Source: an uncultured Bacilli bacterium
Lineage (GTDB): Bacteria; Bacillota_I; Bacilli_A; RF39; UBA660
Length of the DNA stretch: 32,293 nt
Direction: 5' to 3'
NCBI GenBank assembly: GCA_947632455.1
Contig: CANRPK010000015.1
Coordinates: 1-32,293 of the forward strand
Positions 17,301-26,719 of this stretch are shown in pieces. Every line of letters starts with the position of its first letter. Within the stretch, counting starts at the first letter, position 1. The position numbers and the translations under genes are program-made. Below the pieces are notes generated by a model, which was not told where the DNA came from, ran no database searches, and saw only the letters and a list, made by a program, of their open reading frames with translations.

Positions 17301-17307
17301 ATTTCAA

Positions 17308-18003
17308 ATGGAAAGGAAAAATACAGTTTTATTAACAGTAATCGCTGTGGCAACTCTTTTAGTTGCAGTCGTTGGTGCAACTTTCGCATATTTCACTGCT
17401 ACTAGTACTAATGACGATAATAGTGCTGGAACAGCCGCTGCTACTACTGCAAAAGTTGCACAAGTTAAACTAAGTGCTTCTGCTATTGAAGGATCTAAAG
17501 AGGCTATTTGGCCTGGTACTTCTAATTATATTGGAACTAGTGTATCTGCTAGTGTAGAGGAAGAAGGATCTAACAGCGAAGCTACATATGAGGTAAATTA
17601 TACATTAACAGGTTCTGTAACTCCTAGTGCTGCTTTCTCTCAAGGTAAAATTGATTGGAAATTATATAAAGTAACTGAAGAAGTTAAGACACCAGTTACT
17701 TGTACTCCAGTTTCTGATGGAGGAGAAAATAAATTTTCACAAACTTGTACTTTAGATACGAAGTTAACCGGAGATACTGCTGTTGAAGCTGCTAGTGGAA
17801 GTATTGAAGTTGGTTCAAGTGATGCTGAGACTGTTACATATACTGGAACTATAAAAACTGGTGCTGCGACTGAGTATTTTTACTTAGTTTATACTTATGA
17901 AAGTAAACCTGAAACTGATCAAAGTGCTGATGCTGGAGGCACTAAAACTGTTACAGCTGCTATAACTGATGTTACAAGCAATAGTGTTAAAGTTGCTTCA
18001 TAA
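17308..18003 (+). CDS. Expressed SipW-type surface protein (TasA/camelysin-like), cassette 1
   Basis: This 231-residue protein has a SipW-type signal (1-31: basic start MERKN, long hydrophobic core, GATFAYFTA) and a Thr/Ser/Ala-rich beta domain. Two Cys (about 131 and 148, VTCTP and SQTCTL) could form a disulfide, and the same pair occurs in cassettes 2 and 3. A conserved turn is seen as WPGTSNYIGTSVSASV (cassette 2: YPGTMNYVGTSVSASI). The C-terminal motif TDQSADAGG corresponds to NQ..DQG in relatives. It should be exported, processed by the SipW-like enzyme at 24731, and form surface fibres or a matrix as TasA does; that role is inferred. Bases 17312-17402 recur, inverted and identical, at 20532-20622, and 17360-17412 recur directly at 19038-19090, so this is the likely expression site of a variable locus. 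Confidence 0.85.
   Translation: MERKNTVLLTVIAVATLLVAVVGATFAYFTATSTNDDNSAGTAAATTAKVAQVKLSASAIEGSKEAIWPGTSNYIGTSVSASVEEEGSNSEATYEVNYTLTGSVTPSAAFSQGKIDWKLYKVTEEVKTPVTCTPVSDGGENKFSQTCTLDTKLTGDTAVEAASGSIEVGSSDAETVTYTGTIKTGAATEYFYLVYTYESKPETDQSADAGGTKTVTAAITDVTSNSVKVAS
17312..17402 (+). repeat. 91-bp repeat, copy A (inverted partner at 20532-20622)
   Basis: These bases encode residues 2-31 of the surface protein. Read base by base they are identical to the reverse complement of 20532-20622. Identity stops at once on both sides (GAA versus TAA upstream, TAGTACT versus CGCAACC downstream). The last 43 bp plus the next 10 are also found directly repeated at 19038-19090. Confidence 0.95.
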
Positions 18004-18438: not shown

Positions 18439-18723
18439 TTAATCTTCATTTAAAGCTTTAATTAAATCAGACATATTATTATAATCTTTTAGTTCTTTTT
18501 TGCCATTTTCAATATCTTCTAATTCTTCCATTGCTTCTACCATTCTTTTAGTAGGTTTATAATTACTTACTTTAAAAGGAATTCCATCTTTTTTAATTAC
18601 TTGTTTGATAGCAATATTAATAAATGTAGTCATATTTAAGCCTAAATCTTTTAATATTCTTGTTGCTTCCTCTTTATCTTTGGCATCAACTTGAACATTT
18701 ATTACGCTTGTTAAAGATTTCAT
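18439..18723 (-). CDS. DinJ/RelB-family antitoxin
   Basis: This 94-residue protein has the RHH pattern of DinJ/RelB antitoxins: strand SVINVQVDAKDKEEATRIL, then DLGLNMTTFINIAIKQVIKKDGIPFKV, the hallmark segment of the family (LGLN.TTAIN.F.K......GIPF). The C-terminal part (about 58-94) is the acidic toxin-neutralising arm. RBS GAGG and the ATG at 18723 are clear. The promoter (18755-18783) contains repeated TATGTAGTA-like motifs upstream, suiting autoregulation. Its toxin gene appears decayed, so it is now probably a lone DNA-binding protein. It sits between the arms of the 91-bp inverted repeat, on the strand opposite cassettes 1 and 2. Confidence 0.85.
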   Translation of the reverse strand: MKSLTSVINVQVDAKDKEEATRILKDLGLNMTTFINIAIKQVIKKDGIPFKVSNYKPTKRMVEAMEELEDIENGKKELKDYNNMSDLIKALNED

Positions 18724-19006: not shown

Positions 19007-19035
19007 ATGTATACCACTTGTTAAGTGGTATACAT
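19007..19035 (+). repeat. Palindrome 2 at the cassette 2 junction
   Basis: ATGTATACCACTT, GTT, AAGTGGTATACAT: perfect 13-bp arms. It ends 2 bp before the block shared with cassette 1 (from 19038). Confidence 0.9.
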
Positions 19036-19037
19036 TA

Positions 19038-19711
19038 TAGTTGCAGTCGTTGGTGCAACTTTCGCATATTTCACTGCTACTAGTACTAATCCTGAAGAAG
19101 GAAAAGGAAGTGCTACTATACAAACTGCTAAGGTTGATAATATTAAGTTAAATGCAACTGCAATGGAACAAAGTAATAACAAACCAATATATCCAGGCAC
19201 TATGAATTATGTTGGAACTTCTGTAAGTGCAAGCATCGATGGTGCCAGTGGAAGTGGAAAAAATTATGATGTCACTTTCAAAATAACTGGAAAAATTGAA
19301 GTTAAAACTACTGATCATGAACCTGCGGCTAGTACTTTAGCACAAGATGTTACTTGGACAGCATATAAAGTTACTAAAGCAGAGAAAACTGCTCTTTCAG
19401 ATAAGCAAGTAGTTAGTTGTGATCCTGTGACACCTGTAAGTGATGGTGTAACTGTTAAATATTCTCAAAGTTGTAAAACTGATGAAACAATTACTACAGA
19501 AGTCGGAAGTGGTACATTATCAGCTGGATCAGGAAGTGAAACTATTGAGATTACTGACCAAAAAGTAACTACTGGGGCTGATGAAGTATACTATTATATT
19601 GTATATCAATATAAAAATGTTGAGTCACCTCAAAATGAAGACCAAGGAAAAAATATTATTGTAAGTATAGATGCTATCGAAGGCACTAAAACTGAAGAAG
19701 CAGTTGGATAA
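19038..19711 (+). pseudogene. Silent surface-protein cassette 2 (no start codon)
   Basis: This open frame encodes about 224 residues of the same family as cassette 1, but it begins inside the signal peptide (VAVVGATFAYFTA). Its first 53 bp are identical to 17360-17412. There is no ATG or RBS. A GTG at 19025 is inside palindrome 2, has no RBS and is preceded by an in-frame TAA (19022-19024). The body is intact: YPGTMNYVGTSVSASI, two Cys (VSCDP and SQSCKT), and the tail NEDQGKN. An intact body without a start fits a donor cassette rather than a decaying gene. P1 at 18876 could transcribe it. Restoration would need recombination with the 17308 expression site. Confidence 0.75.
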
Positions 19712-19900: not shown

Positions 19901-20622
19901 TTAGGATTTAAGACTAACTTTTGTTCCGGTTACTCCAGATAATTGAAGCTTAATATCTTTTCCTTGATCAGTCGTAGCTTGATTTGAACCAGGATCATTA
20001 GCATATTTAAGTATTAAATAATAATGAACACCTGCAGCTCCAATCTCTTCAACATCAAGTTCTAATCCTTCTTTTGTTATCTCAAATTTACCATCAGAAT
20101 CGGTAGTGATATCAAGTGTTTGATCAGTTTCAAATAATTTATTTGTATCTTTAAGGTTAGTGTCAAGAGCACAACTATTTACTGACATTTCTAAACCAGA
20201 TGTACCTGAAGTACTCACAGCGCAATCAGTTACAGGTTCGGTAACAGCATCTCCAGTCACTTTATAAATATTATAAGTAAATGAAGAAGTAGAATTTTTT
20301 TGTTTAAGCGCTGATAAATCAATAGAACCATTTAGAGTATAAGTAACTTTATAATCATTATCATGGTCACCTTCATATTCAGCTTTTACTCCAACACCAG
20401 CAGCTAACCAAACACCAGGATAAATAGTTTCAAAGTTAGTTATGCTTTCAGGTGAAGCGGTAACATTTACATTACTTACCTTAGCAGTACCAACACTTAC
20501 TTCACTTCCGCCTTTATCTCCACCGGTTGCGGTAGCAGTGAAATATGCGAAAGTTGCACCAACGACTGCAACTAAAAGAGTTGCCACAGCGATTACTGTT
20601 AATAAAACTGTATTTTTCCTTT
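19901..20622 (-). pseudogene. Silent surface-protein cassette 3, inverted
   Basis: This minus-strand open body encodes about 240 residues of the same family. It includes the full signal block from codon 3 of the expressed gene (RKNTVLL...GATFAYFTA) and then a different mature part (TATGGDKGGSEV). It has YPGVW, two Cys (VTDCAV and VNSCAL), and the tail TDQGKD. The first 91 bp equal 17312-17402. Just before, the codon that is GAA in the expressed gene reads TAA, and no ATG or RBS precedes it. A GTG in the frame (at 20587) lies inside the hydrophobic core and is not a credible start. Inversion across the 91-bp repeats would place this body in frame behind the 17253 promoter and ATG. Confidence 0.8.
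20532..20622 (-). repeat. 91-bp repeat, copy B (inverted partner of 17312-17402)
   Basis: It is identical over all 91 positions to 17312-17402 when reverse complemented. The pair encloses about 3.1 kb containing cassette 2, the dinJ gene, P1, P2 and three palindromes. Confidence 0.95.
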
Positions 20623-20625
20623 ATA

Positions 20626-20657
20626 TATGAATATGATATAGCTATATCATATTCATA
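20626..20657 (+). repeat. Palindrome 4 (32 bp, perfect) at the cassette 3 junction
   Basis: TATGAATATGATATAG / CTATATCATATTCATA has perfect 16-bp arms and no spacer. It starts 4 bp beyond the 91-bp repeat and ends 6 bp before the promoter of the second dinJ gene, so it could be an operator or a recombination-related site. Confidence 0.9.
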
Positions 20658-20691: not shown

Positions 20692-20710
20692 TATTATGGA
20701 GGATAAAATT

Positions 20711-20983
20711 ATGTCTACTATTAATGTAAATGTACCTTCAGATATTAAAGATAAAGCTAATCTTTTATTTGAAGAATTGGGTTTAAATATGACTACAGCA
20801 ATAAATATGTTTTTAAGAAAATCGATTGATGAATGGGCAATACCTTTTAATGTTAGTGCAAAAAGACCTAATAGAGAATTATCAGAAGCATTACAAGAAG
20901 GGGAAGGTATTTTAAATGGTAAGATACAATCTAAAAGTTATAATAATGTTGATAAAATGTTTGATGATATATTAAGTAAGTAG
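20711..20983 (+). CDS. Orphan DinJ/RelB-family antitoxin
   Basis: This 90-residue RHH protein has the DinJ hallmarks: STINVNVPSDIKDKANLLF as strand and first helix, then ELGLNMTTAINMFLRKSIDEWAIPF and an acidic C-terminal arm. The start is the ATG at 20711, 8 bp after GGAGG; an open frame reaching back to 20663 runs through the promoter and has no RBS. No toxin gene follows: the stop codon is immediately succeeded by palindrome 5, then by a promoter for the next surface gene. It is similar to, but clearly diverged from, the 18439 protein, so this is not a recent duplication. It lies just outside the 91-bp inverted repeat. A regulatory role on the adjacent palindromes is possible but unproven. 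Confidence 0.85.
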   Translation: MSTINVNVPSDIKDKANLLFEELGLNMTTAINMFLRKSIDEWAIPFNVSAKRPNRELSEALQEGEGILNGKIQSKSYNNVDKMFDDILSK

Positions 20984-21009
20984 TATGTAATATATAAATA
21001 TATTACATA
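20984..21009 (+). repeat. Palindrome 5, right after the orphan dinJ stop
   Basis: TATGTAATATAT, AA, ATATATTACATA: perfect 12-bp arms beginning at the base after the TAG stop. No T run follows directly, so it is a poor terminator. Confidence 0.85.
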
Positions 21010-21042
21010 GGTAAAATTTTTGTAGATTAAAAGGAAATTATG

Positions 21043-21071
21043 TTGAAAAATTGGTAATTTTTTGATATATT
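21043..21071 (+). promoter_or_regulatory. Promoter of the 21097 surface gene
   Basis: TTGAAA (21043-21048), 17 bp, TATATT (21066-21071), with GGAGG at 21085-21089. Confidence 0.6.
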
Positions 21072-21096
21072 ATATTTAAGCTATGGAGGCTTGCGT

Positions 21097-21681
21097 ATGA
21101 AATTTGATTTAAAGGAACAGAAGAGGAATATTCTTTTGGGAACTATTTTATGTGCGTTAGTGGCATGTATTGGATATTCATTTGCTTATTTTACAGCGGG
21201 AGTTAAAACTACTACTGAAGGATTAGAGAATGGAGTTACAGTTCAGACAGCTAAATTTTTAAAGATTACTTATGATGCAGGAGATAGCGCATCAATAAAC
21301 ATTAATAATGCTTATCCTGGAATGAGAGATGTAAAAAAAGAATTTAGTGTAAATGTTGAACCTTATGGTAATCAACAAGTAGCAATGTATGATGTTTTAA
21401 TTAATATTAGTAAAAATACTTTTACTGATACAAATAATGATTTAAAATATACTTTAAAAGGTGTAAATAGTAAAGGTGAAAGTGTACTAGATCAATCTGG
21501 AACTTTAACTAATGTTACTGGAAAAGTTGGACCATTTCAGGTTACACATGAAGCTAAAGAAGGTAAAGCTGAAAAATGTACTTATACATTAACGATTTCT
21601 TATCCGGATAATGGAAAAAATCAAAATCATGAAGGCAACTTTGAATTTATTGGAACTATAGATGTTCAGTTACATAAATAG
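21097..21681 (+). CDS. SipW-type surface protein (TasA-like), 194 aa
   Basis: The start is the ATG at 21097 (MKFDLKEQKR), 7 bp after GGAGG; a TTG two codons earlier is too close to the RBS. The signal is SipW-type: basic start, hydrophobic core about 13-30, ending in GYSFAYFTAG. The mature part has NNAYPGMRDVKKEFSVNVEP, matching the YPGT segment of the cassettes, a beta-rich core, and the C-terminal motif NGKNQNHEGNF that parallels NQ..DQG. A similar fold appears in the tail of the rod protein that follows. It is in the same orientation as the rod gene and the sipW-like gene but has its own terminator. It is probably a constant, non-switching member of the locus. Confidence 0.8.
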   Translation: MKFDLKEQKRNILLGTILCALVACIGYSFAYFTAGVKTTTEGLENGVTVQTAKFLKITYDAGDSASININNAYPGMRDVKKEFSVNVEPYGNQQVAMYDVLINISKNTFTDTNNDLKYTLKGVNSKGESVLDQSGTLTNVTGKVGPFQVTHEAKEGKAEKCTYTLTISYPDNGKNQNHEGNFEFIGTIDVQLHK

Positions 21682-21706
21682 AAGTAAGTTAAAAACTTAC
21701 TTTTTT
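21682..21706 (+). terminator. Terminator of the 21097 gene
   Basis: AAGTAAGTT, AAA, AACTTACTT and T run, immediately followed by the promoter of the rod gene. Confidence 0.8.
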
Positions 21707-21710
21707 GATA

Positions 21711-21739
21711 TTGCGAATAATTAAAGATTATGTTATACT
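21711..21739 (+). promoter_or_regulatory. Promoter of the rod-protein gene
   Basis: TTGCGA (21711-21716), 17 bp, TATACT (21734-21739). AGGGAG lies at about 21749-21754. Confidence 0.6.
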
Positions 21740-21764
21740 TTTTGATAGTAGGGAGTGTATAGTT

Positions 21765-24629
21765 ATGGAAGAAAATAATTTACAAGAACAATACGCTTTA
21801 TTGGAAAAGGAAAAAGAAGAAGATAGAAAGAAAACGATAATAATTATTATTTTATGTATATTGATTATTATTGTTACATTATTAGGGTTATTTTTTGCTT
21901 ATTCTAATGTAGGAAAGTTTTGTACTGTAAACTGTGATATTAACAAAGATGGCAAATGTGATTTAAATTGTGATATTGATGGAGATGGTATTCCGGATAT
22001 TAACATCGATACTGATGGAGATGGAAAGCCTGATATAAATCTTGATTATAAGGGAGATGGCAAAGCTCATTTTAATATCGATACAGATGGAGACAGAAAA
22101 CCTGATACTAATGTAGTTGGCAAAGATACAAATGGTGATGGTGTTTGTGATTACAACTGTGATACTGATGGTGATGGTATTCCGGATATAAATCTTGATT
22201 TTGACAATTCTAATACTTGTCATATTAATTGTGATATTAATGGAGATAATAAACCAGATATAAATCTTGATACTAGTGGAGATGGAAAGCCTGATTTAAA
22301 CGTTGATGTTAATGGAGATAGAAAACCTGATCTAAATGTAGATACTACTGGAGATGGAAAGCCTGATCTAAATGTAGATACTACTGGAGATGGAAAGCCT
22401 GATTTAAACGTTGATGTTGATGGAGATAGAAAACCTGATATAAATATTGATACTACGGGAAATGGAAAACCTGATTTAAATGTTGATGATGATGGAGATA
22501 ATATTCCAGATAAAGGTCTTGATTATGATAATGATGGTAAATGTGATTTTAATTGTAGTAAAGATGACGGAACTTTTGATAAAGATGTAAATCTTGATAC
22601 AAATGGTGATGGTGTATGTGATGTAAACTGTGATACTAATAAAGATGGTATTCCAGATTTAAATGTTGATTTTGATGGAGATAAGAAACCTGATGTAAAC
22701 GTTGATACTGATGGAGATGGAAAACCTGATTTAAATTTAGATGTTAACAGAGATAAAGATCCAAATGTAAATGTAGATACTACAGGAGATGGAAAACCTG
22801 ATAAAAACGTTACTAATCAAGATACTGATGGTGATGGTGTATGTGATTTAAACTGTGATACTAATGGTGATGGTATTCCGGATAAAAATGTAGATATTAC
22901 TGGTTCTGGTACTTGTGATTTAAACTGTGATACTAACAAAGATGGTGTATGTGATAAGAACTGTGATACTAATGGAGATGGAAAACCTGATAATAACATA
23001 GTTGATGAAGAAACTGGTAAATGTAAATTAAATTGTGATACTAGTGGAAATGGTACACCTAATGTAAATGTAGATACGAATAATGATGGTAAATGTGATG
23101 TAAATTGTGATACTGATGGTGATGGTATTCCTGATACTAATTTAGATTATCATGGTAATCAAATTCCACAATTTGATATTGATACAGATGGAGATGGAAA
23201 GCCTGACAAGAACGTTACTAATCAAGATACGAATAATGATGGTAAATGTGATTTAAACTGTGATACAGATGGAGATGGACTTCCTGATGTAAATGTTGAT
23301 TTAAGTGGAAATGGTAAACCTGATGTAAATGTTGATAAAGATGGAGATGGAGTTCCTGATATCAATATTGATTCCAGTGGAAATGGAAAGCCAGATACAA
23401 ATGTGGATACAGATGGAGATGGAAAACCTGATAAGAACGTTACTAATCAAGATACAGATGGTGATGGTAAATGTGATGTAAACTGTGATACAACTGGAAA
23501 TGGTATTCCTGATACTAACATTGATAGTGATGGTGATGGTTCATGTGACCTTAACTGTGATACTAATAAAGATGGTAAGTGTGATGTTAACTGTGATATT
23601 GATGGAGATAAAATTCCAGATACAAATGTAGATACTACTGGAGATGGAAAACCTGATTTAAATGTTGATAATGGTACAGGTAAATGTGAATTAAACTGTG
23701 ATATAAATGGTGATGGAGAGCCTGATACGAATGTGGATACAACTGGTGATGGAATTCCTGATACTAACATTGATAAAACTGGCGATGGCAAATGTGATGT
23801 TAACTGTGATACAACTGGAAGTGGAACTTGTACTTTAAACTGTGATACAGATGGAGACGGAGTTCCTGATACAAATGTGGATACAACTGGTGATGGTAAG
23901 TGTAATGTTAATTGTGATGGTGAAATTAGTAATGATGCTAACTTAAAAGATTTAAGTGTTGGTAATTATATTTTAACGCCAAAGTTTAGTCCTAATGTAA
24001 CAAGTTATACAATTACAGTTGGTAAAGATGTTAAATCAGTTAATGTTAGTGCTACAGCAAATAATCCTAAATCTAAAGTAAGTGGTCTTGGATCATTTAA
24101 TGTATCAAATGGTACAGTATTAAATGTTGTTGTTACCGCTGAAGATGGCACTACTAAGACATATAAGATAACTGTTAAAGTTGGAGATGGATCTTCAGTT
24201 GGTGATGATGGTGAAGGCAAGACTGAAATAGAGCCTAGTGATACTACACTTTTAGTAACATATACTAAAGGTATAAATGTTGAAAATATTGAGCCTGGTT
24301 GGCATGGTAGACAAACATTTACTTTAACTAATAATGTACCTAAATCTGTTGTTTATAGAATTAATTTAATAGATGTAACTAATACCTTTAAATCTCGTAA
24401 TTTTAAATATGTTTTAAGAAAAGATGGAGATGTTATTGTTTCTAGTACTGTAGCTCCAAAAACTACTGATAGAGAGACTATTACAGAAGATTTAATAATA
24501 GCTGCAGATGAAAAAGCAGAATTTATATTAGAGTATGAATTTGTAGAAACTAATAGGGAACAAAATGAAGATCAAGGTGTTAGATATTCAGCTAAAGTAG
24601 AAATTGAAGTTGTTTCAATAGTACAATAA
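21765..24629 (+). CDS. Giant calcium-binding-repeat surface rod with TasA-like tail
   Basis: Start is the ATG at 21765 (MEENNLQEQY) after AGGGAGTG; an upstream extension to 21705 crosses the promoter. This gives 954 residues. Order: cytosolic charged start; hydrophobic segment (about 24-47) ending in LLGLFFAYSN, close to a SipW-type signal; about 55 twelve-residue repeats (about 53-718) of the form D-T-D-G-D-G-K-P-D-x-N-V; a cadherin-like beta-sandwich domain (about 724-808, LKDLSVGNYILTPKFSPNVTSY); and a C-terminal domain (about 825-954) like the TasA-type proteins, with NREQNEDQG. The DxDGDG loops should bind calcium, as in thrombospondin type 3 repeats. Many repeats carry a C-D-x-N-C-D pair, unusual for such rods. 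It is probably a long calcium-stiffened spacer tied to surface fibres. Repeat number may vary between strains. Confidence 0.88.
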   Translation: MEENNLQEQYALLEKEKEEDRKKTIIIIILCILIIIVTLLGLFFAYSNVGKFCTVNCDINKDGKCDLNCDIDGDGIPDINIDTDGDGKPDINLDYKGDGKAHFNIDTDGDRKPDTNVVGKDTNGDGVCDYNCDTDGDGIPDINLDFDNSNTCHINCDINGDNKPDINLDTSGDGKPDLNVDVNGDRKPDLNVDTTGDGKPDLNVDTTGDGKPDLNVDVDGDRKPDINIDTTGNGKPDLNVDDDGDNIPDKGLDYDNDGKCDFNCSKDDGTFDKDVNLDTNGDGVCDVNCDTNKDGIPDLNVDFDGDKKPDVNVDTDGDGKPDLNLDVNRDKDPNVNVDTTGDGKPDKNVTNQDTDGDGVCDLNCDTNGDGIPDKNVDITGSGTCDLNCDTNKDGVCDKNCDTNGDGKPDNNIVDEETGKCKLNCDTSGNGTPNVNVDTNNDGKCDVNCDTDGDGIPDTNLDYHGNQIPQFDIDTDGDGKPDKNVTNQDTNNDGKCDLNCDTDGDGLPDVNVDLSGNGKPDVNVDKDGDGVPDINIDSSGNGKPDTNVDTDGDGKPDKNVTNQDTDGDGKCDVNCDTTGNGIPDTNIDSDGDGSCDLNCDTNKDGKCDVNCDIDGDKIPDTNVDTTGDGKPDLNVDNGTGKCELNCDINGDGEPDTNVDTTGDGIPDTNIDKTGDGKCDVNCDTTGSGTCTLNCDTDGDGVPDTNVDTTGDGKCNVNCDGEISNDANLKDLSVGNYILTPKFSPNVTSYTITVGKDVKSVNVSATANNPKSKVSGLGSFNVSNGTVLNVVVTAEDGTTKTYKITVKVGDGSSVGDDGEGKTEIEPSDTTLLVTYTKGINVENIEPGWHGRQTFTLTNNVPKSVVYRINLIDVTNTFKSRNFKYVLRKDGDVIVSSTVAPKTTDRETITEDLIIAADEKAEFILEYEFVETNREQNEDQGVRYSAKVEIEVVSIVQ
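21922..23920 (+). repeat. Coding tandem repeats, 36-bp period
   Basis: About 55 units, period 36 bp (12 codons) around GGAGATGG..., many near-identical over 36-72 bp (for example 22317-22376). Two classes alternate: Lys-Pro-Asp units and Cys-Asp-x-Asn-Cys-Asp units. The repeats invite slippage or unequal crossing-over in frame. Confidence 0.9.
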
Positions 24630-24655
24630 AGAATATAGAAATATATTCTTTTTTT
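24628..24655 (+). terminator. Terminator of the rod gene
   Basis: AAAGAATATA, GAAA tetraloop, TATATTCTTT and T run, starting in the stop codon. Confidence 0.85.
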
Positions 24656-24677
24656 AATGGAAAAAATATAAATTATC

Positions 24678-24706
24678 TTGTATTTTAAAAAATAATAGGC
24701 TATAAT
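24678..24706 (+). promoter_or_regulatory. Promoter of the sipW-like gene
   Basis: TTGTAT (24678-24683), 17 bp, TATAAT (24701-24706). RBS AGGAGGGG is just before the ATG at 24731. Confidence 0.65.
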
Positions 24707-24730
24707 AATTTTAGAATAGGAGGGGTTCCT

Positions 24731-25483
24731 ATGAATAATAAAAAAAGCAGTTTTATGAATATTACTAAAATTATTAGTAAGATTATTTCTTGGGCCCTAT
24801 TTGTATTACTATTAATGGCTGCGGCTTTTTTAATTTATTATTATATTGCAACTAGAATATATGCTAAAAAAGGTCCTGGTTATGAGCCATATTTTTCTAT
24901 TTATACGATTGTTAGTCCATCTATGACACCAAATATTAATGTTTATGATGCGATAATAAATATTAAAGTTAAAGATCCTTATGATATTAAAGAAGGGGAT
25001 GTAATTACCTTTATTTCAACTAGTTTAATATCTCCAGGAACAACTATTACACACCGGGTAAAAGAAGTAATAAAAGATGAAGATGGTAATGTTTGTTATA
25101 AGACTAAAGGAGATTACAATAAAGTTGAAGATCAAGCTTGTGCTAAATATAATAACGTTATTGGTAAAGTTGTATTAAAAATTCCACAATTAGGAAGATT
25201 ACAATTTTTCTTAGCTTCAAGATTGGGTTGGTTATTATGTATTTTATTACCGGCTTTAATAATAATTATTAAAGATATATTAAGAATAGTTACACTTTCT
25301 AATATTAAAAAAACTACAAGTGATATGTCAAATAAGAAAGTGGATCCAGAAAAAGCTAAGAGGGAAGAAGAAAGAAAAAAAGAACTTAAAAGAAGATTAA
25401 TTAAAGAAAATAAAAGTGATAATTATTATGTAGAACCATCAGTAAAAACTGTTGATAAAAGAAATAAGAAAAAGGGGACATAG
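24731..25483 (+). CDS. sipW: SipW-like type I signal peptidase (ER type)
   Basis: This membrane serine protease cleaves signal peptides of TasA/camelysin-type proteins. In the 250-residue protein the catalytic Ser is S64 in VSPSMTP (62-67 region), and the second residue is His (H108 in TITHRVKEV) instead of the Lys of ordinary bacterial LepB. Ser-His marks the ER/archaeal type (MEROPS S26B), to which B. subtilis SipW belongs. Membrane segments are at about 17-40 and 160-190. A highly charged cytosolic tail (about 200-250, rich in K/E/R) follows and is longer than I expect. Position right after three kinds of candidate substrates supports the pairing, as in tapA-sipW-tasA. The symbol is by function; orthology is not proven. 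Confidence 0.9.
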   Translation: MNNKKSSFMNITKIISKIISWALFVLLLMAAAFLIYYYIATRIYAKKGPGYEPYFSIYTIVSPSMTPNINVYDAIINIKVKDPYDIKEGDVITFISTSLISPGTTITHRVKEVIKDEDGNVCYKTKGDYNKVEDQACAKYNNVIGKVVLKIPQLGRLQFFLASRLGWLLCILLPALIIIIKDILRIVTLSNIKKTTSDMSNKKVDPEKAKREEERKKELKRRLIKENKSDNYYVEPSVKTVDKRNKKKGT

Positions 25484-25496
25484 TCTCCTTTTTTAG
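25470..25496. terminator. Shared terminator of sipW-like and FemAB genes
   Basis: AAAAGGGGAC, ATA, GTCTCCTTTT, with A and T runs on both sides so that it can serve both convergent genes. Confidence 0.75.
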
Positions 25497-26719
25497 TGAT
25501 TAAATACTTTTGCTAAAGTACCATTTTTATTTAATTGATGATATATTTTATTATTTAAAATTAAATCAAATTCACCAATAAATTCATAGATATTAGGATT
25601 AAATCCAATTTTAAAATCATTTAAGCCTTTATAGGGATTAGTTGGATTAAAATCACCAGTTAAACCATTTAAATCTAAGTATTTATAATTGGTTTTATAA
25701 AATTCTATTAAACGATAATGAAGATAATAATTAGCATTAAAATTACGATATTTAGGATCAATACCACTTATGATGATATTTACACGATTTTTATATTTAA
25801 TTGTTAAAGCTCCAGCAATGTATACTTCTTTTTTTTCTCTTAGGCCTTTAGTAGCAATTTCAATATCATTTTTATAAGATAATAAAGTACGATCAGAATT
25901 CATTTTTTCATTAATTATTAAAGTATCATTATTATTGATTAATTTTTCAGAAAGTTCATTATTTTTAATTAATTCTTGATCATATAACTCTTTACTATTT
26001 AAAAGATATTTTTCATAATCTATTTTAACTAGAAATAAATCACAAGCATCTTTACGACTGAAAACATTATAATAATTTTTATAATAATAGTTAGTTATAT
26101 CTTTTTTTCTTTTAACAAATTCATATAAAGTATCTAAATCTTTACGTTCCTTTTTTTCAAATACTAAACCTTTTTTACTAGCTTTACGAATTTTATTTTT
26201 AGTATTTTTAGATAAATCATTAAAATTATATTCTTTTAAATTAATAATGCCATTATAACGGGGAATTAAAGATTCAAAATAGATATTATCTTTTAATTTA
26301 ATATAACCTAAATCTTTTAAATTAGATCTAATAACTATATTTTGATTATAATTAACTAGTTTAGATTTTTTATTTACTTCTCCTATAGCTAATTCAGGGT
26401 TAATTTTGATAAAAACTAATTTTTTTTCATAATATTTTTTTAGGGTTTCAGTAAAAGATTTTAATAAATTTTGATTAAAATAATCTATTAAGAAACCTTT
26501 AGGGGAATAACCATATTTATAATGAAAATTTAATTTTTTAATTAATATTAAAGCCGCGGCTTTTATAATACCTAATTCATCTACATAGCCAATTAAATCA
26601 TAATCATAGCCATTTTCAGCCATAAATAAAGCATAATCAGAACTTTGATGGTATGAGCCTAGGGAATGAAGAGAAGCAAAAGCATCAAATTCAGCCATAG
26701 TTAATTCTTTTATGTGCAT
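25493..26719 (-). CDS. FemABX/MurM-type peptidoglycan aminoacyltransferase
   Basis: FemABX enzymes use aminoacyl-tRNA to add the first or later residues of the peptidoglycan cross-bridge on lipid II, at the inner face of the membrane. The 408-residue protein has typical length. The start (FASLHSLGSYHQSSDYALFM, about 12-31) matches the family FxQS-like opening, and KYGYSPKGFLIDY (about 68-80) its acceptor-side region. It has two GNAT-like halves separated by a coiled-coil arm (about 235-285, YDQELIKNNELSEKL) that contacts tRNA, and ends with YLDLNGLTGDFNPTNPYKGLNDFKIGF, a strong family signature. The ATG at 26719 follows AAAGGGG. The residue added cannot be told. Confidence 0.9.
   Translation of the reverse strand: MHIKELTMAEFDAFASLHSLGSYHQSSDYALFMAENGYDYDLIGYVDELGIIKAAALILIKKLNFHYKYGYSPKGFLIDYFNQNLLKSFTETLKKYYEKKLVFIKINPELAIGEVNKKSKLVNYNQNIVIRSNLKDLGYIKLKDNIYFESLIPRYNGIINLKEYNFNDLSKNTKNKIRKASKKGLVFEKKERKDLDTLYEFVKRKKDITNYYYKNYYNVFSRKDACDLFLVKIDYEKYLLNSKELYDQELIKNNELSEKLINNNDTLIINEKMNSDRTLLSYKNDIEIATKGLREKKEVYIAGALTIKYKNRVNIIISGIDPKYRNFNANYYLHYRLIEFYKTNYKYLDLNGLTGDFNPTNPYKGLNDFKIGFNPNIYEFIGEFDLILNNKIYHQLNKNGTLAKVFNH

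Follow-up and report, generated by a model that had tools for sequence, protein, structure and literature searches.

A long repeat protein that ends in a TasA-type domain, encoded between a small secreted TasA-like protein and a SipW-like signal peptidase, raises the question of what such a rod does beside the parts of a fibre. In TasA fibres, according to the excerpts of PMC9674648 used here, the N-terminal strand of one subunit (residues 28–38) completes the sandwich of the next subunit, and the monomer self-complements with residues 48–61. The first strand of the TasA fibre is believed to come from TapA (PMC9674648, PMC10151520, both in excerpt).

Organization of the locus

The window, by which we mean the whole stretch of 32,293 nucleotides analysed, corresponds to contig 15 of a genome of 1.54 Mb that comprises 126 contigs. 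In the window three TasA-like cassettes precede the 21097 gene, the rod gene and the peptidase gene. The order TasA-like protein, 954-residue repeat rod and SipW-like peptidase, proposed in the initial annotation, was recovered with the same coordinates and sizes. The features are as follows:

17303–17402, + strand: left arm of an inverted repeat (100 nt, 97% complementary) that spans the cassette signal region
17308–18003, + strand: cassette 1, TasA-like subunit, start and signal complete, presumably the expressed copy
19025–19711, + strand: cassette 2, signal truncated, upstream stop codon, presumably silent
19901–20587, − strand: cassette 3, inverted and without its start codon, presumably silent
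20532–20631, − strand: right arm of the 100-nt inverted repeat
21097–21681, + strand: TasA-like secreted protein (the 21097 protein), 194 aa, accessory 'constant' subunit
21765–24629, + strand: rod, 954 aa from its ATG, single transmembrane segment, no LPxTG
21765–21833, + strand: N-tail of the rod, residues 1–23, NLQEQYALLE type, charged, presumably cytoplasmic
21834–21905, + strand: transmembrane segment of the rod, residues 24–47, resembling the SipW-type signal of the cassettes (hhalign)
21936–23915, + strand: 49 twelve-residue DxDGDG units (by pattern), residues 58–717, presumed calcium sites
23946–24176, + strand: cadherin-like beta-sandwich domain, rod residues 728–804 (PF12733, 39.5 bits, cut-off 24.2)
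24210–24626, + strand: TasA-type C-terminal domain, rod residues 816–954 (PF12389, predicted fold)
24731–25483, + strand: SipW-like signal peptidase I, 250 aa, with a conserved charged cytoplasmic tail

A scan of positions 20950–25600 for promoters and terminators gave sites no more numerous than in shuffled sequences. Two small genes, one RelB/DinJ antitoxin-like (20705–20983, + strand) and the other at 18442–18723 (− strand), sit between cassettes. Relatives of these two genes in G001 and G004 precede an ORF of about 100 aa, a possible toxin; none was noticed after the two genes in the window.

The SipW-like peptidase

The peptidase scored 89.1 bits on TIGR02228 (ER-type signal peptidase I), above the cut-off of 51.85. 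On the Bacillus SipW model NF046067 it scored 85.7 bits, below the cut-off of 190, so it is called SipW-like here and placed outside that model. It had been described as a Ser/His peptidase, and Ser64 and His108 were indeed invariant, in 20 of 20 sequences of the genus and in 14 of 14 wider sequences. No second match to the peptidase was found in its own genome. After the last membrane segment follows a charged tail of about 60 residues. This C-terminal tail (window positions 25301–25480) is conserved, with the motifs RK.ELKRKLLKE and YY..P, and could pair with the N-tail of the rod.

The rod

The N-tail and the transmembrane segment are the best conserved parts of the rod, with mean pairwise identities in the genus of 72% and 77%, respectively; the corresponding values are 46% for the TasA-type tail and 47% for the signal of the 21097 family. 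The segment is the sole membrane segment of the rod. Compared by hhalign with the cassette signal it gave 95.3% (E 2.3e-8, 29 columns), the unrelated controls giving 0.1–2.2%. The likeness to a SipW-type signal is clearest in other genera, where the segment ends in GATYSY. At position −3 of the putative cut, rods of the window's genus have F, Y, I or V and not a small residue.

The repetitive character of the rod, also claimed initially, is plain from the spacing of the units: in the window rod 39 of the 48 spacings between the 49 units are exactly 12 residues, and 680 unit spacings of 12 were counted across 30 rods, a set made up of the window rod and 29 relatives, a few of them cut by contig ends. 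Unit positions 8 and 12 are mostly occupied by Cys/Cys or by Pro and a hydrophobic residue. Among the 957 units of the 30 rods, 363 have Cys at both positions, 494 have Pro plus a hydrophobic residue, and two have a lone Cys. We take Cys8 and Cys12 to form a putative intra-unit disulfide, alternating with the Pro/hydrophobic pair. The rods are very cysteine-rich surface proteins, with up to 115 Cys in the rod of locus L152.

To judge only from their DxDGDG pattern, the repeats would bind calcium. Thrombospondin type 3 repeats have calcium sites of the DxDGDG pattern, with Cys or Pro at fixed positions; the rod repeats share DxDGDG with them and differ by their regular 12-residue lattice. Searched against PDB sequences, the rod repeats gave no match at E 0.001. 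The cadherin-like domain that follows the repeats has dozens of matches in a single open frame of 5643 residues on another contig (G035:C8). No LPxTG-type C-terminal signal was found in the window rod or in the 29 other rods, and a sortase-anchored adhesin was rejected on this ground.

The C-terminal domain of the rod and the small subunits

The rod tail alone passed the Pfam camelysin model PF12389 with 24.0 bits (cut-off 22.5); taken together with the cadherin-like domain it scored 22.1 bits. Six of 20 rod tails matched PF12389 at E up to 0.1. Against the profile of the 21097 family the rod tail gave 98.4% (E 6.4e-15), and 97.7% in another comparison, with unrelated controls again at 0.1–2.2%.

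The AlphaFold model of the rod tail, made with 30 sequences, had a pLDDT of 87.7. Structure prediction of this tail alone had been proposed as a check on the initial annotation, and it did not yield a fold unlike the TasA type: in VIA-align the TasA monomer 5of2 came first (Z 9.4, rmsd 3.1, 130 aligned residues), residues 91–229 of the model lying on TasA residues 40–234, and 5of1 came third (Z 8.8). The lead of TasA is small, as unrelated folds reach Z 8.2 on this domain where TasA reaches 9.4, and Foldseek placed 5of2 only at rank 22; the fold result therefore leans on the profile evidence. On the profile matches and the predicted fold together, we classify the rod tail as a domain of the TasA/camelysin family.

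The 21097 protein alone had no Pfam or NCBIfam family match, so that its kinship to TasA rests on relatives and profiles. In the 21097 alignment, four of 17 members matched PF12389 at E up to 0.1, and seven of the 17, the window's own protein not included, matched TIGR04088 (SipW-type signal) at the same threshold. The AlphaFold model of the 21097 protein (pLDDT 80.6) consists of a signal helix (residues 7–30), a low-confidence stretch (28–50) and nine strands (56–192), and the nine strands of the rod tail match these nine in order. Foldseek placed a TasA fibre (8aur) at rank 18 with E 6.8e-4 for the 21097 model, and TasA was absent among the 50 best rows of VIA-align. SIDT1, GOLD domains and other jelly-rolls returned by VIA-align (Z 9.3 and below) were not read as kin of the 21097 protein. 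Residues 28–50, right after the signal helix, are a candidate donor strand; their low confidence in the model is what a free strand would give.

Against the cassette profile the 21097 protein gave 98.9%. Between cassettes and rod tail the match was limited to the final strands with the tail motif (42.7% over 33 columns, 85.3% over 35 columns). The common TasA-like fold suggested initially for all these proteins thus stands, by profile, between the rod tail and the 21097 protein and between the latter and the cassettes; between cassettes and rod tail it is weaker, confined to the last 33–35 columns. PDB sequence searches at E up to 1 returned 11 sequences with the rod-tail profile and 12 with the 21097 profile, neither set including TasA, and no sequence with the cassette profile.

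A common tail motif had been noted in the rod, the 21097 protein and cassettes 2 and 3. It is present in all four, as EQNEDQG, NQNHEGN, PQNEDQG and NQATTDQG, respectively, and a degenerate form, DQSADAGG, occurs also in cassette 1. The motif falls within the stretch that matches PF12389. Its Q is kept in every one of the 30 rod tails and in all 17 members of the 21097 alignment, which makes the motif more than chance.

The rod tail and the subunits differ in what precedes the fold. The segment before the rod tail is an acidic linker, with 24% D/E and 17% large hydrophobic residues in 24 rods, whereas the donor region in the 17 members of the 21097 alignment has 7% D/E and 30% large hydrophobic residues. 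The TasA match of the rod tail begins at TasA residue 40. From composition and model, the rod tail looks like an acceptor fold without a donor. The missing donor strand suggests an end-piece rather than a further subunit, and since the tail starts where the TasA donor strand ends, we read the rod as a putative membrane-anchored stalk with an acceptor-only docking domain.

In G080, G092, G167 and others of the order the same TasA-type domain recurs in numerous large proteins, with up to 16 matches per genome, hinting at a wide set of possible fibre-docked surface proteins.

The cassettes

With TIGR04088, 23 of 30 cassettes matched at E up to 0.1; cassette 1 stayed under the cut-off (13.8 of 19 bits). 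Similar inverted cassette copies were found in three of the four other genus loci searched, the best pairs being 95–100% identical over 70–118 nt. The fourth, L131, had no inverted cassette repeat and only one cassette in range. Cassette 3 of the window and the cassette that occupies the expressed slot of G001 share 61% identity. The inverted copies in other loci and this identity support exchange between slots, and we infer from the sequences that the cassettes may switch and the subunits be exchanged.

Three contigs of other genomes (L125, L126 and L127 on G004:C34, G019:C61 and G012:C42) hold three to five cassettes that face both ways and mostly lack a start codon. These cassettes lie apart from the rod, or the contig ends before a rod is reached.

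Conservation and distribution

Among 35 genomes of the same genus a close SipW (E below 1e-85) was found in 31 and a rod tail (E below 1e-15) in 28, the latter count excluding G018, whose rod is cut by a contig end. Four genomes (G006, G012, G014 and G030) had no close SipW, and no rod tail among the matches listed. After exclusion of rods truncated at a contig end, the 30 rod loci gave 27 testable for SipW, 22 for the 21097-type gene and 17 for the cassettes. SipW lay within 2 kb downstream of the rod in all 27 testable loci of the genus, a 21097-type gene upstream in 20 of the 22, and a cassette upstream in 15 of the 17. The interval between rod and SipW holds another gene in G010; in G015 and G017 (loci L093 and L092) it holds a second SipW-like peptidase, 57–58% identical to that of the window over about 150 residues.

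No 21097-type gene stands beside the rod in G013 and G021, nor in L166, L168 and L173 of other genera. The core set is therefore cassette subunit, rod and SipW, with the 21097 protein as an accessory. The gene set proposed at first is thus co-conserved, and one of its members, the 21097 protein, is not essential to it.

In G002 two cassettes and SipW are present, and neither a rod nor a 21097-type gene. At the place of the rod beside SipW this genome keeps a 50-residue frame (L132:9715–9867) consisting of N-tail and membrane segment only, which may be a remnant or an N-tail with a job of its own. In G031 the contig starts 155 bp before SipW.

The SipW profile, run over the named genomes, picked out 49 loci; almost all of them belong to metagenome bins whose titles read uncultured Bacilli, Mycoplasmatota or Tenericutes. 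In four loci apparently of other genera (L166, L168, L169 and L173) a rod of this kind, without the cadherin-like domain, lies beside SipW, and three of the four have cassettes. In eight further loci SipW stands in another context with no rod.

An evenly drawn sample of the order comprised 241 genomes. The tail profile matched in 85 of them, belonging to 35 of 92 genera (some of these matches being small proteins or other large proteins, not rods), and the SipW profile in 165. Both were present in 82 genomes, only the tail in 3, only SipW in 83 and neither in 73, an odds ratio of 24 that is uncorrected for shared ancestry. SipW without the tail in 83 of 165 genomes indicates that SipW has other partners. 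In 30 genomes a tail, in some cases that of a small TasA-like protein, lay 35–219 bp before a SipW gene on the same strand; these distances cover the stronger matches only, the genome counts all matches. Direct inspection of loci from several further genera showed rods with both repeats and tail. Genus synteny and order sample together answer the objection that the genes might not be co-conserved. In a class sample of 198 genomes the tail profile matched nine, all in the window's family.

The TapA family model TIGR04087 matched in none of 40 genomes, and the B. subtilis control was found. From genome titles (uncultured Bacilli, Mycoplasmatota, Tenericutes, Mycoplasma, one Ruminococcus) and sample names such as Lapin and chick, our guess is that the carriers live in animal guts and that the family is part of the order RF39.

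Discussion

The reading that we propose starts from the gene set, its co-conservation, the domain homology, the predicted fold and the missing donor-like segment: the locus builds a TasA/camelysin-type surface fibre, in which the rod is a membrane-anchored stalk with an acceptor-only TasA-type end domain. We give this reading about an even chance. SipW would cut the signals of the small TasA-like subunits, that is, of the expressed cassette and, where present, the 21097 protein, and this cleavage would free their N-terminal donor strands. The rod would be retained in the membrane by its single N-terminal segment, and its repeats, stiffened by calcium, would carry the C-terminal TasA-type domain outward through the wall. 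As a TasA core without a preceding donor strand, this domain could only accept an inserted strand; it would sit at one end of the fibre and act as its anchor and its start or end point. Cassette switching would exchange the subunits. Since the TasA monomer self-complements, an acceptor-only start is not obviously favoured.

The resemblance of the membrane segment to a SipW signal means that the segment may be cut, and the rod would then be released and sit at the distal tip of the fibre as a two-domain adhesin. FimH of type 1 pili is built in this way, with a long binding part in front and a subunit-like acceptor domain behind. The SipW-type motif at the end of the rod segment fits such a role, an acceptor-only C-terminal domain suits a tip as well as an anchor, and the cadherin-like domain could bind ligands. 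We nevertheless regard a tip adhesin as unlikely. A conserved cytoplasmic tail of 20 residues is unexpected for a discarded signal, and position −3 of the putative cut is not a small residue in the window's genus. That the N-tail is conserved far better than the C-terminal tail and, with the membrane segment, is all that survives of the rod in G002 speaks for a standing role inside the cell.

Alternatively, the rod could be a stand-alone membrane-anchored surface protein, its TasA-type domain self-complemented and outside any fibre, and the gene neighbourhood could reflect shared regulation. TasA-type domains do end many other large proteins of the family (up to 16 matches per genome), and self-complementation is known for TasA monomers (PMC9674648, in excerpt). 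The immediate linkage to SipW across genera (35–219 bp in 30 genomes, small TasA-like proteins included) and the tail motif common to rod and subunits argue against it, and make it in our judgement rather improbable. That the proteins are camelysin-type metalloproteases and not fibre parts, as the Pfam name of PF12389 might suggest, was rejected as highly improbable, since there is no HExxH in the rod, the 21097 protein, the three cassettes or the 29 other rods, and TasA itself is a structural fibre protein (PMC9674648, in excerpt).

As a TasA-type fibre with the rod as its stalk, the proposed structure can be compared with known systems, each known to us from excerpts of the sources. Like this locus, the B. 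subtilis TapA-SipW-TasA operon has a SipW-type peptidase beside TasA-family subunits; the SipW-type signals of these subunits, their fold and the donor strand directly after the signal have putative counterparts here. TapA, in contrast, donates a strand and its Ig fold is complete; the rod would accept a strand instead, so that the polarity would be opposite, and no TapA was found here. For the long repeat stalk, the cadherin-like domain, the conserved cytoplasmic tail and the cassette copies we found no TapA-SipW-TasA counterpart in the excerpts of PMC9674648 and PMC10151520.

In design the rod resembles F-Anchor of the F-ENA spore fibres of B. thuringiensis, which is proposed to combine N-terminal attachment, a semi-flexible stalk and a C-terminal domain with the subunit fold on which the first subunit docks (PMC11952670, in excerpt). 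F-Anchor differs in its collagen stalk, DUF4183 trimers and exosporium attachment (PMC11952670), and the families are unrelated; DUF4183 is absent from the Pfam matches listed for the rod, and the two were compared by design only. TasA-CalY-CapP of B. cereus (PMC13082335) and SipW-BsaA of C. perfringens (PMC7395162) are likewise filament systems of the SipW or TasA family and include a second subunit or secreted accessory proteins. B. cereus is without tapA, and its CapP consists of DUF4047 and disordered repeats and is not TasA-type (PMC13082335). No stalk with a subunit domain was found described for either system in the excerpts of these two papers.

The part families are known; the arrangement, a stalk that ends in the subunit fold, is new for the known SipW/TasA fibre family within the open-licence PMC literature. 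In that literature no TasA/rod/SipW locus in these Bacilli was found, and searching by RF39 was uninformative.

More broadly, the locus may exemplify an antigenically variable class of donor-strand fibres in uncultured Bacilli, with a fixed acceptor-only stalk, a polarity opposite to that of TapA and a docking subunit exchanged among silent cassettes, throughout the family. We hold this wider claim tentatively, as possible and somewhat short of probable.

TasA-type fibres are known from Bacillus biofilms, and a stalk with a subunit domain at its end, in the absence of TapA and together with variable subunit copies, would show a second way of fixing such fibres to the cell. The model predicts a fibre polarity that can be tested by complex prediction. 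For bacteria known mainly as metagenome bins it would provide a defined surface organelle, and it names the constant part (the rod) and the variable part (the cassette) of a surface structure probably exposed to host and phage.
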